Below, one piece after another: positions 379 to 4,933 of a DNA stretch of 8,376 bases; position 1 is the stretch's first letter; the number at the start of each line of letters is the position of its first letter. This DNA is from Planctomycetota bacterium. Lineage in GTDB: Bacteria > Planctomycetota > Phycisphaerae > WQYP01. The stretch is taken from contig JAJZOA010000315.1 of the NCBI GenBank assembly GCA_021852225.1, forward strand, positions 1 to 8,376, read 5' to 3'. The translations under genes were made by a program, and so were the position numbers. The notes beneath the pieces are model-generated. The model made no database searches and was not told where the DNA came from. It was given only the letters and a program-made list of their open reading frames with translations.

Positions 379-1062
379 TCAGGGCTTGAAAAATCTCAGG
401 TCCGCATGTTTTGGATACATATTCCGGACGTACCGATAGGCGACGTAGGCGGTCACGCCGTCGCAGAACAGTTTTTTGTAAAATAGCTGGCTTACCAGAG
501 CGGCATCGGCCCAGCGAATTTCCCTCCGCGGACTGATAAATGCGTCCGCTCCGGTGCCGCGGACAAAGGCTTCCCCGAAGGCGTCATTACCGGTCAGACA
601 ACTGGAAGAGAAAACTGTCTTCCCGCGCAGGTCTCCAGCCAGAGAAATGACTTCATCAACGTCAACTTCTTCCAGTTGAAGCACCAGTTTTCGCTGCAAA
701 CCGTGCATGGAAAGGTGAATGTGGCGACTGGTCGAAAGGCGTGCCAGCCTCAGGAAATGTCCAAGTTCCAGTTTGGTGCGGATAAACGAATAGAGCGGTC
801 TTGCGCCGATCATGCGGAGAAATTCACCGAGCAACCGACCTTCCGACCAATACTTTTCGGTGGGTTTGCGGGAAACGGATTCTATCAGGAACACTTTATT
901 GGAAGGCTGAAGGCGACGCGCCGGCATGCGATCTGTTTCGCCGTCCTGATAGGCGAAATAGGCGGTTCCATTTGCCAGAAAAGTGATGCGCGCCGGGAAT
1001 AACCGCTCCCGGTTCCACGGGGCGTATACGCGATCACCTATATGCAAGTTTCTGCCGACCAT
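379..1062 (-). CDS. Tudor/SH3-like domain fused to a caspase-like (CHAT-type) peptidase domain
   Basis: This is a predicted 227-residue cytoplasmic protein with no signal peptide or membrane segment. Residues 7-55 form a small barrel-like unit (IGDRVYAPW, then FPARITF, AYFAYQDG and MPARRLQPS). It has the G-x-V-x-A, P-A-x-I, Y-x-DG rhythm of Tudor/SH3-like domains, with several aromatics that could form a binding cage. Residues 57-216 read as a caspase-like fold. A first strand (KVFLIES) and a helix (EGRLLGEFLRMIG) precede the strand HIHLSMHG, which carries the likely catalytic His120. The strand KTVFSSSCLTG follows and carries the likely nucleophile Cys155. Next come a GADAFISP strand and the WADAALVSQLFYKKLF helix, as in CHAT and related C14-like proteins. 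I chose ATG 1062 because AAGGG/AAAGG stands just upstream. A longer TTG start at 1140 has no such site and would run through a TATAAT box. Substrate and activator are unknown. The fold calls are motif-based and the dyad is the firmest part. Confidence 0.72.
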   Translation of the reverse strand: MVGRNLHIGDRVYAPWNRERLFPARITFLANGTAYFAYQDGETDRMPARRLQPSNKVFLIESVSRKPTEKYWSEGRLLGEFLRMIGARPLYSFIRTKLELGHFLRLARLSTSRHIHLSMHGLQRKLVLQLEEVDVDEVISLAGDLRGKTVFSSSCLTGNDAFGEAFVRGTGADAFISPRREIRWADAALVSQLFYKKLFCDGVTAYVAYRYVRNMYPKHADLRFFKP

Positions 1063-1119: not shown

Positions 1120-1125
1120 ATTATA
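1120..1125 (-). promoter_or_regulatory. Candidate -10 box for the caspase-like gene
   Basis: The minus strand reads a perfect TATAAT here. Transcription would start near 1113 and leave a leader of about 50 bases before ATG 1062. No good -35 match lies at 16-18 bases spacing (CGCAGT is the best placed) and there is no extended TGn element. If real, the promoter is weak or activator-dependent. It is supported mainly by its position in front of the gene. Confidence 0.3.
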
Positions 1126-1578: not shown

Positions 1579-2334
1579 ATGGCAGGTATTAAGAGAGTTA
1601 CAGCACCGCAAGGCTTCACGCTGATGGAACTTCTGGTCGTTATCAGTATCATCGCACTTCTGATTTCGCTGCTGCTTCCGAGTTTAAGTCAGGCTCGTTC
1701 ACTGGCCAATCGGGTTGACTGTGCATCCAATCTCCGGTCGATCGGTCAATGTATGCACATTTATGCCGACGAAAACCAGAACCAATATCCGGTTAATATG
1801 AAGAATTCCATTTTCACTTTTGGTCCGGTCGTGGCAGGTTACACCAAAACCTTCCAGCCGATCCCGGGCAGTTTCGGAGCGCTGTACACCAACGGCATCC
1901 TCACCAATTCCACTATGTTGTACTGCACGCAGCCGGGCTTTTTCGGACCGGCCATGGCCCATTACAACCTGTATCTCCCGACGGAAGTGGAATCTGGCGC
2001 TCCAATCAGTTGGTGGAGCATTTATTATGGCTATTCCTACTGGTATCAGCAGCAGCCGGGCAATCCGTTTTCGCCAAATGCTCTGACCAATCCGAATATT
2101 CAGTACACCCAAATTGTCAACGACAGCCCGAATACAATTCTGGCTTCGGATATCACCGCCAATCTGGCTGGCAATTGGAACTGGCCATATAACATGCCTA
2201 CATCCAATCACGTAAGCGGCAACAACGGCAAGCCGGATGGTGGAAATATCTTGAAAAACGACGGTTCCGTCAATTGGAAAAATATTGGTGATATGTCGGT
2301 CGGACGCAGTTGGATTTTCAATTATTATCAGTAA
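1579..2334 (+). CDS. Pseudopilin-like protein with type IV/type II secretion N-terminal methylation motif
   Basis: This 251-residue protein begins with a short basic leader ([12 protein letters not shown]). The prepilin peptidase site follows, cleavage being expected between Gly12 and Phe13. Phe13 would be N-methylated and Glu17 is the conserved fifth residue of the mature protein ([10 protein letters not shown]). The hydrophobic stretch 13-34 serves first as membrane anchor and then as the core helix of the pilin. [23 protein letters not shown] continues the alpha-1 helix in the way typical of Planctomycetota pseudopilins. The C-terminal region (His211 to Trp233, with [11 protein letters not shown]) matches the H...DG signature of these proteins, in which a strand with the DG turn ends the globular domain. 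The middle part is rich in Tyr, Trp, Asn and Pro, as in secreted surface proteins. Such genes occur in dozens of copies per planctomycete genome and their substrates or roles are largely unknown. It is followed by a strong terminator and appears to be a single-gene unit. Confidence 0.92.
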
Positions 2335-2380
2335 GGCTGTGCCCCACCGCTGCAACACAATTTAACAGCTATTCATCCAG

Positions 2381-2418
2381 AAGGGGCCGGACCGCGCAGG
2401 TCCGGACTCCTTTTGTTT
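2381..2418 (+). terminator. Intrinsic terminator after the pseudopilin gene
   Basis: A perfect 7-base-pair GC-rich stem, CCGGACC at 2387-2393 and GGTCCGG at 2399-2405, closes a 5-base loop. Outer AAGG (2381-2384) and CCTT (2409-2412) can pair as well. The run TTTTGTTT (2411-2418) follows on the plus strand. In the minus direction no T-run follows the hairpin, so it should stop pseudopilin transcripts rather than those of the convergent glycan operon, whose last stop codon (2417-2419) touches it. Confidence 0.85.
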
Positions 2419-3145
2419 ATACGCCGGTCCTTGGCATAGACAGATCGCCAAAACCGATCAGCCTTATGCCACGAGCCATGATGGCGTTGCGTACTGCCGG
2501 ATCGCAAAGCGTCCGAACTTCAGTTAATCGTTCCTCGCGATACTGGGATTTTATTGTCAGATCCAGTCCCGGATGACAGCTCAATTCGGTCACGCCCTGG
2601 TCAAGCTTTTGCAGAATCCACACCATTCCCTTCACGCTGATATTCTCCGGCGTCGGTTCCAGATATTCATTTTGTCCAAAAAACGCGCCCCAGAACCGGA
2701 CGTACGGGTCGGCACCGCGCAGCACCACACCGAGTTCTCTTGCCAGCCGTTGCATTTCAGCGCCCGCCGCCGGACCTTTGTGCACGTGCTGATGTGAATC
2801 CAGGTGGGTCGGATTGGTGCCGGTTAACTGACGGAATCGATCCAGTTGCCGGCAAATTTCGTCGCGCACTGATGTCGGGTCATGTGTGGGAACAACTTCA
2901 TAAATTGTTTTCCATTCGCCGTGGGAAAATATCCATTCGCCCAGCTCCACATGCAGGCCGAGGCTCAAATGGCCGTCGTCTCGCCAAAGCTCAACAGCTT
3001 CCAGTGCCGCCGGTGATCGGACCATCAGGCTGGCGCTGGTCAGAATTCCGTCGCGGCGGCATTTCATAATGCCGGCATTGGTCAATGAGCTAAGGCCGAA
3101 ATCGTCCGCATTCACGATAAGTTGAGGCGCTGAACCTGCATGCAC
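2417..3145 (-). CDS. YdjC/ChbG/HpnK-family carbohydrate deacetylase
   Basis: This 242-residue protein has the YdjC-fold signature. NADDFGL (residues 12-18) carries the paired aspartates. GLHVELGE (63-70) carries a metal-ligand histidine, His65. HLDSHQHVH (114-122) carries further metal/catalytic histidines, and ELSCHPG (187-193) and YREERLTEV (202-210) complete the active site. In this family (ChbG on chitooligosaccharides, HpnK in hopanoid synthesis) the enzyme removes N-acetyl groups from acetylated sugars using a divalent metal. The length is typical and no signal peptide is seen, so it should act in the cytoplasm. The start is GTG 3145. GGAG lies 10 bases upstream, inside the end of the preceding gene, whose stop is only 5 bases away. 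As the last gene of the glycan operon it probably deacetylates a HexNAc residue of the operon's product, but the exact substrate is inference. Confidence 0.9.
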   Translation of the reverse strand: MHAGSAPQLIVNADDFGLSSLTNAGIMKCRRDGILTSASLMVRSPAALEAVELWRDDGHLSLGLHVELGEWIFSHGEWKTIYEVVPTHDPTSVRDEICRQLDRFRQLTGTNPTHLDSHQHVHKGPAAGAEMQRLARELGVVLRGADPYVRFWGAFFGQNEYLEPTPENISVKGMVWILQKLDQGVTELSCHPGLDLTIKSQYREERLTEVRTLCDPAVRNAIMARGIRLIGFGDLSMPRTGV

Positions 3146-3150
3146 TTCGG

Positions 3151-4326
3151 TTAAACTCCAATCTGCCGCATGACTTTGGCTAGAACCTTAGGCGCGGAAA
3201 AATATTCTTCTGCTATGTCCCTTGCGGCACGGCAGTTGCCGGCGTAATCGCGCCGAATTTCAGCAACCGCATGCGCAATATCCTCCATGGTTTCAAATGC
3301 AAACAGCCCCCGACCTGTCGGCAGGTGATTGCCAAACCCGGTCTGTTGATTGATGACGGGCCGGCCTGCCGCCAGGTAGCAGGCACTGCGGTCCGAAAAC
3401 CAGCCGCTGCGCAGCCGGATATTCTGATCCTTGGCCACGCTGAATTCTCCACGCGATCCCCGAATATAATCGCGGTAACGGGCCATATCCCGTGAAAGAT
3501 GGACCGGATCCCGCAACGTCCAGCCGTGATCCGTCAGAAGGCGGCGGGTTGGTTCATCCACACCGGCGGCGATTTCAAATGCGGCACCGGTGATTTGCGG
3601 GGCCTGAAGAAATTTTAAGAATTCGCGGTCCTTGGACCAGTAATAGGTTTCGCCGGCATATTCAATGTCCCGACCTTTGTTCCGCCAGGTGGCGATTGTA
3701 TTAAACGATTCTCCAGCTTCGGAGGGCTGGCTGTTCCAGAAGTCCAGCACCACAGGCTGGCGCGTGGAATGCCACTTGTAGCGCCCGGTCGGCAGTCGGC
3801 AATCCGGGCATCCCAGGTTTTCACCATAAGTGAAATGATGCGTATGTGCATCCAGCGCTGCAATCACATTTTCGTTACCCTGTGCGATCTGAATCTGAGA
3901 AACGACCGGGTCGGTTTCCAGATACACCCGGATGGGGCAATCCAGATGTTCCGTGCGAAGTTCCTGCGCACCCGTGACGTTAAGAATAATGTCCGCGGTT
4001 TTATACAACTCCGCCAGCCGCTGTTCGGTTTGACCGTAACATTTTCCACCTTCGTAATGACCGCGGAAAATCCATCTGTCGGCCAGGCCGTGTTCCTTGA
4101 GAATCGGTACGATGGCGGCAATGTTGGCGTCGGCATCCGGTGTGCTGTCGCCGAGTGTCGGGCTGTAAACCCAGCGGGCGGAATCTTCCACGTACCAGGG
4201 ATCAAACCCCAGTTGGCGCAGGCCCAGCATAAAATGCAGAAATTGCCAGGTTACTCCGGCCAGTGGATACCAGAACAAAATGCCACACACAATGATGCGC
4301 GGTCGCGGGCGCAATGGGTCAGTCAT
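3151..4326 (-). CDS. GT-B-like glycosyltransferase (CgeB/family-1-like)
   Basis: This 391-residue protein has two Rossmann-like halves. The N-terminal half starts with the strand IIVCGILFWYPLAGVTWQFL (residues 11-30), then LRQLGFDPWYVED, the usual 'find the donor/acceptor cleft' pattern of GT-B enzymes. It goes on with ADIILNVTGA (111-120) and a PIRVYLETDP strand (131-140). The C-terminal half contains LRSGWFSDRSACYLAAGRPV (305-324), QTGFGNHLP (328-336) and GLFAFETMEDIAHAV (340-354), then a helix with CRAARDIAEEYF. In GT-B enzymes this region holds the nucleotide-sugar site. Donor and acceptor cannot be read. The start ATG 4326 is set by AGGAG 7 bases upstream. A longer frame to 4674 exists but its extra 116 residues are a Pro/Arg-rich shadow of the gene before. 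It overlaps the preceding acyltransferase by 8 bases (ATGACTGA), implying coupled translation in the glycan operon. Confidence 0.8.
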   Translation of the reverse strand: MTDPLRPRPRIIVCGILFWYPLAGVTWQFLHFMLGLRQLGFDPWYVEDSARWVYSPTLGDSTPDADANIAAIVPILKEHGLADRWIFRGHYEGGKCYGQTEQRLAELYKTADIILNVTGAQELRTEHLDCPIRVYLETDPVVSQIQIAQGNENVIAALDAHTHHFTYGENLGCPDCRLPTGRYKWHSTRQPVVLDFWNSQPSEAGESFNTIATWRNKGRDIEYAGETYYWSKDREFLKFLQAPQITGAAFEIAAGVDEPTRRLLTDHGWTLRDPVHLSRDMARYRDYIRGSRGEFSVAKDQNIRLRSGWFSDRSACYLAAGRPVINQQTGFGNHLPTGRGLFAFETMEDIAHAVAEIRRDYAGNCRAARDIAEEYFSAPKVLAKVMRQIGV

Positions 4327-4933
4327 GGTAATTCTCCTGTTGTTCGGCCGGCGCGTTTGCGGGGGCGATGGAACGAATGAATTTTGCCGGATTTCCCGCA
4401 AAAATGCAGTTTGGTGGCACCTGCCCGCCCACCACGGACCTGGCCCCAATAATGGTCCCGTCGCCAATGGTTGTGCCGGGCAGAATGCAGCAATCGAACC
4501 CAATCCACACATTGTTGCCGATGGTAACCGCTTTCGTCGCCTGTCCAGCGAATGCCTCCGGTGACCGCGTGCCGGCGAACTGGCGCAACATGGCGCGTCG
4601 CCGGTCCGACCGGGGCGAGGCGCGGTAGGTATCCATAATAACCACGTTCCAGGACAGGAGACAGGAATCGCCAATGGTTACGCGCTGGTCGCAAATAAGC
4701 CATAACCCGTTGAGCAGCGTATTTTCGCCGGTTTGAAAACAGGCCTTGGTGCCCAGATCAAACATGCAGCCCATATACGCGGATGAATTCGCGCCTAGAA
4801 TCATGCCAACGGGCAGACGGCTGCGGTAAAACTGAAAGCTGTAGGTGGTTTCAAGATATGCGCCGGTTCGCAATTCCACGTTTTCCGGAATAACGCCCGG
4901 ATGCCAGTCCCATGGAAGTGTGCGTGCGGTCAT
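4319..4933 (-). CDS. Left-handed beta-helix acyltransferase lacking the usual catalytic histidine
   Basis: This 204-residue hexapeptide-repeat protein of the WbbJ/maltose-O-acetyltransferase type has repeats seen as VTIGDSCLLSWNVVI (86-100) and VTIGNNVWIGFDCCI (136-150), with the following coil TTIGDGTIIGARSVV. The closing NPAKFIR (181-187) is the family's C-terminal signature. Such enzymes are trimers that transfer acetyl or other acyl groups from CoA to sugar hydroxyls or amines. The catalytic His normally found after the loop (as DSDFHP in the gene before) is replaced here by DTYRAS (101-106). The only histidines are His11 and His203, outside the core. ATG 4933 is preferred over 4972 because it gives a 4-base ATGA overlap with the stop of the preceding gene. 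An N-terminal segment of about 40 residues precedes the helix. Family assignment is firm; activity and substrate are open. Confidence 0.85.
   Translation of the reverse strand: MTARTLPWDWHPGVIPENVELRTGAYLETTYSFQFYRSRLPVGMILGANSSAYMGCMFDLGTKACFQTGENTLLNGLWLICDQRVTIGDSCLLSWNVVIMDTYRASPRSDRRRAMLRQFAGTRSPEAFAGQATKAVTIGNNVWIGFDCCILPGTTIGDGTIIGARSVVGGQVPPNCIFAGNPAKFIRSIAPANAPAEQQENYHD
4334..4338 (-). promoter_or_regulatory. Ribosome binding site deciding the glycosyltransferase start
   Basis: AGGAG on the minus strand stands 7 bases before ATG 4326 and selects it over far-upstream in-frame starts that would lie wholly inside the acyltransferase gene. It sits within the last codons of that gene. 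Confidence 0.75.

Follow-up and report, generated by a model that had tools for sequence, protein, structure and literature searches.

The window, i.e., the whole stretch of DNA that was analyzed (contig JAJZOA010000315.1 of assembly GCA_021852225.1, 8,376 nt, Planctomycetota bacterium), contains a gene for a protein of two predicted domains, which is called the tudor-caspase gene in the following. Its features are compiled in Table 1, and residue numbers refer to the 227-aa protein. The original prediction had described an open reading frame of this position and length with the motifs HLSMHG and SSSCLTG, and all of this was found, but on the minus strand, as the plus-strand reading of 379-1062 contains two stops. 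The first motif includes His116 and His120, the second Cys155, and the spacing between His120 and Cys155 is 35 residues. The start codon is consistent with the starts of the orthologues. The existence of 19 orthologous loci together with low dN/dS values (see below) showed that the open reading frame is a real gene.

Table 1. Features of the tudor-caspase gene in the window.
Feature	Positions	Strand	Remarks
tudor-caspase gene	379..1062	minus	227 aa, ATG at 1062, stop codon 379-381
Tudor-like barrel	898..1044	minus	residues 7-55
Caspase/CHAT-like domain	382..897	minus	residues 56-227
W16 codon	1015..1017	minus	counterpart of PHF20 cage residue W97 in the alignment; the same in all 20 orthologue rows
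F22 codon	997..999	minus	counterpart of PHF20 cage residue Y103 in the alignment; the same in all 20 orthologue rows
Y38 codon	949..951	minus	counterpart of PHF20 cage residue F120 in the alignment; the same in all 20 orthologue rows
D40 codon	943..945	minus	aligned with D122 of PHF20/PHF20L1 Tudor2; invariant in 20/20 orthologue rows
His120 codon (HLSMHG), predicted catalytic histidine	703..705	minus	invariant in 20/20 orthologue rows and 120/120 listed relatives
Cys155 codon (SSSCLTG), predicted catalytic cysteine	598..600	minus	invariant in 20/20 orthologue rows and 120/120 listed relatives
TATAAT, putative -10 box	1120..1125	minus	58 bases before the ATG

Further genes of the window encode an N_methyl pseudopilin-like protein, a YdjC-like protein, two hexapeptide transferases, an ABC transporter, and three proteins without a Pfam match. 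The pseudopilin-like protein (1579-2334), with an N-methylation motif and a Gly- and Asp-rich C-terminal stretch, is of a type that is common in Planctomycetota. The open reading frame at 3151-4674 (507 aa) starts far upstream in comparison with its 391-aa relative at locus L001, and translation probably begins at the ATG at 4326 instead.

Orthologues were found at 19 loci of the genome collection (81-90% identity), all in metagenome-assembled genomes labelled Planctomycetota or Phycisphaerae/Phycisphaerales, one of them as Phycisphaera mikurensis. Locus L001 is most closely related to the window; it has related genes on both flanks and the same neighbors, and thus the window belongs to the same group. 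The most divergent locus, L039, is absent from the 20 rows that were used for the dN/dS, cage, TATAAT, dyad and fusion counts. The protein database yielded eight matches with 76-90% identity, including P0007, which is frameshifted after about residue 150 and therefore lacks the cysteine in register, and P0008, a fragment of 149 aa; both were kept in alignment A1 and left out of A2. The gene was present in a single copy in each of the 13 genomes searched via the loci and in each of the 20 out of 28 family genomes that carry it.

The N-terminal domain had been proposed to be barrel-like, and profile as well as fold matches indeed identified it as a Tudor-like barrel. For residues 4-55 the best match of both kinds was the second Tudor domain of PHF20/PHF20L1, which are methyl-lysine readers. 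By alignment, the three aromatic residues of the cage (one Tyr replaced by Phe, one Phe by Tyr) and the aspartate of that domain have counterparts in W16, F22, Y38 and D40, all of them invariant. The window barrel differs in that it is bacterial, only 23-24% identical and fused to a protease. The Pfam Tudor families did not match the window row, and among 16 orthologue rows there were weak matches to Tudor_3 (9 rows, best E 0.0043) and to DUF4537 (5 rows, best E 0.029). The family aRib matched all 16 rows and scored better than Tudor_3 (best E 5e-4 versus 4e-3), but aRib and EAD10 (E 0.15; 0.019 in the row scan) were rejected because they cover the barrel only in part. Profile matches to streptococcal adhesin structures were confined to residues 22-50 and were read as a shared hairpin motif. 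AlphaFold2 predicted the N-terminal segment to be an ordered barrel when it was modelled alone (mean pLDDT 84.7), whereas residues 1-60 of the full-length model reached a pLDDT of only 45-74 per ten-residue block. In each of the two runs only the best of five models was above pLDDT 70.

The C-terminal domain had been predicted to be caspase-like, with an intact dyad, and both statements were supported. The predicted structure was a caspase-like alpha/beta sandwich, its best structural matches were CHAT-domain proteases, i.e., SAVED-CHAT (8tl0) and TPR-CHAT/Csx29 of Craspase, and His120 and Cys155 follow the strands 114-118 and 149-152 of the model, in line with the His behind strand 3 and the Cys behind strand 4 of clan CD. 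All 143 aligned sequences have retained the histidine and the cysteine, in contrast to many other positions, which are variable. Separase, gingipain and metazoan caspases share the clan CD fold; in the rows listed they were 7-14% identical, and the matches spanned the C-terminal domain. At the level of sequence families, scans of the window protein with Pfam, NCBIfam and PADLOC gave nothing above the cut-off. It matched neither Pfam CHAT (PF12770) nor DUF6642 (PF20347), and its stand-alone relative P0009 remained below the gathering scores of both (12.2 bits versus 24, E 0.12, and 18.9 bits versus 27, respectively). Three further relatives, P0037, P0073 and P0092, contain a DUF6642 domain according to precomputed annotation.

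P0009 represents a family of stand-alone CHAT-like proteins of about 200 aa, close to DUF6642, which is homologous to the C-terminal domain of the window protein (profile E 1.1e-14; hhalign 99.5%, E 1.6e-22, with a shallow query profile of Neff 1.35). The same E, E, H, H, C and Y are invariant in both families, but the 120 listed members of the P0009 family did not match the Tudor profile, and they have a median of 8 and a maximum of 51 residues ahead of the protease domain. The profile search scored the best 7995 candidates, and the P0009 search listed and aligned the best 120 of 846 matches; among the latter, the named hosts include Bacteroidota and Gammaproteobacteria, and some copies are located on plasmids and islands. 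Three plasmid records were found, namely a Paracoccus megaplasmid, a Vibrio plasmid with SIR2 and AAA genes nearby, and a small Salmonella plasmid. The DNA of the Salmonella plasmid relative matched 6 of 5426 E. coli genomes, in each case in the chromosome. In four E. coli regions the dinD-yicC interval contains a relative; an integrase gene is found on the same stretch, and a divergent HTH gene directly upstream of the relative. Among these distant stand-alone relatives from Enterobacteriaceae (L053:803-1387; L056-L059), P0129 has retained both histidines and the cysteine.

The original prediction had regarded the architecture as unusual and had asked whether the two domains stay fused. The Tudor domain and the protease were found together in 20/20 orthologue rows, and the Tudor profile matched none of 123 relatives without the fusion (E <= 10). 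A search of 120 genomes of the class with the Tudor profile detected orthologues in 12 of them and one additional match of 16 residues (E 0.008). The full profile detected the 20 known carriers and one protease-only relative, L040, in 298 genomes of the class, and the profile of the stand-alone family had three matches in 294 genomes of the phylum, one of which was an orthologue. Based on these searches, the fusion was seen only in one planctomycete family within the genomes and listed matches that were covered. Among open-licence PMC papers, none was found that joins a bacterial Tudor domain with a CHAT/caspase domain, and none on DUF6642. The protease-only relative (L040:1483-2034) overlaps, in the ORF call, the start of an open reading frame of 387 aa (1904-3067) with a SAP-like stretch, as read from the sequence, and the two are a possible partner pair.

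Next to the constant fusion, the gene behaves like a slowly evolving, vertically inherited chromosomal gene. The median dN/dS was 0.02-0.04, with only 20-43 of 190 pairs scorable; it was 0.04 for the barrel (43 scorable pairs) and 0.03 for the protease (24 pairs). Across 11 loci, the protein distances correlated with the DnaG distances (r 0.98, a value reached in none of 5000 permutations), and the mean difference was 14%, compared to 42% for DnaG. Among 18 neighbor clusters with at least four usable loci, only RpoD was more conserved (97.1% versus 96.4%, at five closely related loci). Between clades, the identity at fourfold sites was 0.27-0.38, with 0.31 expected from composition, and thus these sites are saturated, whereas the proteins are 79-84% identical. 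This rules out recent transfer as the cause of the high identity and indicates long purifying selection on both domains. A virus-borne origin was also rejected, because viral contigs contained no relative of the window protein and P0055 had no match in phages. The stand-alone family profile detected two relatives in IMG/VR; one of them (L055:5968-6459) is divergent to an open reading frame of 788 aa that appears primase/helicase-like from its sequence, and it looks frameshifted near its end, since the tblastn match continues to 6536.

The gene is missing from 8 of the 28 family genomes. The dnaG gene was found in seven of these eight, so that mere incompleteness is an unlikely reason for the absence in these seven; some incompleteness exists, as dnaG was missed in 2 of the 20 carriers. 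The family can therefore do without the tudor-caspase gene. When presence and absence are mapped onto a DnaG tree of 25 genomes, which has long branches, three changes are required, and thus clade-level loss or gain has occurred, either one gain with losses or several gains.

The neighborhood of the gene differs between clades. The dnaG gene is divergently oriented beside it at 11 of the 19 loci, based on BLAST clusters of called ORFs, and at five of these eleven rpoD follows beyond dnaG. Pfam confirmed dnaG at L009 and rpoD at L010, and at L012 a called ORF of 75 codons lies between the gene and dnaG. At seven loci a desaturase-like gene, as read from the sequence, is located upstream and one or two shared unnamed genes are located downstream; the L039 stretch contains no dnaG. 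Apart from dnaG, no neighbor recurs across clades; several neighbors have no Pfam match. The adjacent downstream ORF is convergent in 18/20 cases according to simple ORF calls, and the other two are unverified ORFs. With at least four kinds of upstream neighbors (dnaG, desaturase-like, the type of the window and L001, and L039) and mostly convergent downstream ORFs, a conserved operon was rejected. In contrast to the neighbors, a TATAAT travels with the gene across the differing neighborhoods: it is present 40-110 bases ahead of the conserved IGDR codon at 20/20 loci, against a background of 0.33 per kb on both strands.

The suggested link to cell death, gasdermins or CRISPR was not borne out by these neighborhoods, because they vary by clade and the genes that were read or scanned for families belong to metabolism, replication and transcription. 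PADLOC applied to eight neighboring proteins matched only the ABC transporter of the window, which was read as cross-hits. No Cas7-11 of a Type III-E CRISPR system (Craspase) adjoins the gene: the called ORFs in the flanking stretches (up to 7 kb per side, shorter where a contig ends) do not exceed 985 codons, and Cas7-11 is much longer than that.

The reading that we favor, tentatively and with not quite even confidence, is that of a Tudor-gated small cysteine endopeptidase that binds a protein partner via a cationic side chain and has a conserved regulatory or housekeeping role. The protein would be an enzyme of the caspase/CHAT fold, probably cytosolic, with the Tudor domain as its sole extra part, and the gene would be expressed from its own promoter. 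The pocket formed by W16, F22, Y38 and D40 may bind the partner, most likely through a lysine or arginine that is methylated, or through another side chain of similar cationic character. Binding would position or switch on the His120-Cys155 protease. This may then make a limited cut, probably C-terminal of a basic residue, either in the partner itself or in a second protein that is bound to the partner. Barrel and protease are joined by a short link, which, together with the invariant pocket and the invariant dyad, suggests that the two form one unit, in which ligand binding directs or gates cleavage. The original prediction had already contained a ligand switch, and a set of cage residues that is complete by alignment and invariant sharpens this idea. 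The CHAT proteases offer a likeness that includes the fold, the dyad and the combination of a sensor with a protease, but their sensors are SAVED or TPR domains, while the window protein has a Tudor barrel and no recognized CRISPR or defense gene adjoining. Csx29 is a CHAT protease that is switched allosterically and has a sigma-factor inhibitor as substrate, according to PMC10028731. Caspase-fold proteases with varied sensor domains are already known; the present one is set apart by having a Tudor domain as sensor and by evolving slowly and vertically.

Of the readings that the pocket, as deduced from the alignment, would allow, a methylated protein as ligand is the boldest. That a methyl-lysine or methyl-arginine reader gates or directs a caspase-like protease within one polypeptide, inherited vertically and under a constraint near that of RpoD, is possible but rather unlikely. 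The results on methyltransferases speak against it, and co-occurrence with one was rejected: SET proteins were found in 0 of the 28 family genomes, and DOT1 in one, below the cut-off and in a genome without the tudor-caspase gene. No lysine methyltransferase of these two types is therefore available as the writer in the genomes covered; methyltransferases other than SET and DOT1 exist.

The main rival is that the barrel docks on RNA polymerase or other machinery of transcription or translation and the protease trims a sigma factor, an anti-sigma factor or another transcription regulator. The bacterial Tudor-like domains described in PMC5397179 do bind RNA polymerase or other machinery; those of PcrA/UvrD, Mfd, CarD and RapA share the general fold of the window barrel, and PcrA keeps two cage-like aromatics. 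PcrA has this part of a cage together with a conserved lysine. The Pfam matches of the barrel rows included no RNA polymerase-interaction family. Such a domain of PcrA, CarD or Mfd was also absent from the 50 fold matches that were listed, although so short a list does not rule out a relationship, and dnaG is not adjacent at 8/19 loci or in the window. We consider docking of this kind unlikely. The barrel could also bind DNA or RNA, so that a nucleic acid instead of a modified protein switches the protease. The tandem Tudor domains of PHF20L1 bind DNA strongly and lose their methyl selectivity on nucleosomes, according to PMC13285377, and a PWWP domain with ssDNA (6kco) was among the fold matches of the barrel. 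As a purely electrostatic surface would not need a pocket in which all four residues are invariant, a nucleic acid as ligand appears distinctly unlikely.

Defense effectors usually evolve fast and turn over, and the tudor-caspase gene, which is single copy, vertically inherited, conserved close to RpoD and equipped with its own TATAAT, fits this pattern badly; moreover, no defense genes recur among the annotated neighbors. That the protein is a domesticated defense effector, namely a protease for suicide or abortive infection that a phage product triggers, is thus quite improbable, in spite of the kinship to CHAT effectors and of the distant stand-alone relatives on plasmids, one of them close to SIR2 and AAA genes, and on integrase islands in the four E. 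coli regions. The mobile, defense-like setting of these relatives contrasts with that of the planctomycete gene. A pseudoprotease, in which caspase fold and barrel serve as a scaffold or binding module without catalysis, would be in line with the lack of recorded activity among the listed relatives (best 120 of 846), which are named "hypothetical protein" or "CHAT domain-containing protein", and with DUF6642, the nearest Pfam family, being of unknown function. It is very improbable in view of the conservation of both dyad residues against a background of many varying positions.

To our knowledge, few readers of bacterial protein lysine methylation have been proposed. A bacterial Tudor domain in which all cage residues can be aligned and which is fused to a protease would provide a bacterial reader that can be tested and that has its output built in, and with 227 residues it is a small and tractable sensor-protease fusion. 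If the methyl-reader interpretation is true, it would represent signalling in bacteria in which a modification is read and a protease writes. For the planctomycete family, the role of the protein would be a conserved regulatory or housekeeping one and not mobile phage defense, and a caspase-fold protein encoded by a slowly evolving chromosomal gene bears on the regulatory use of caspase-fold proteases.
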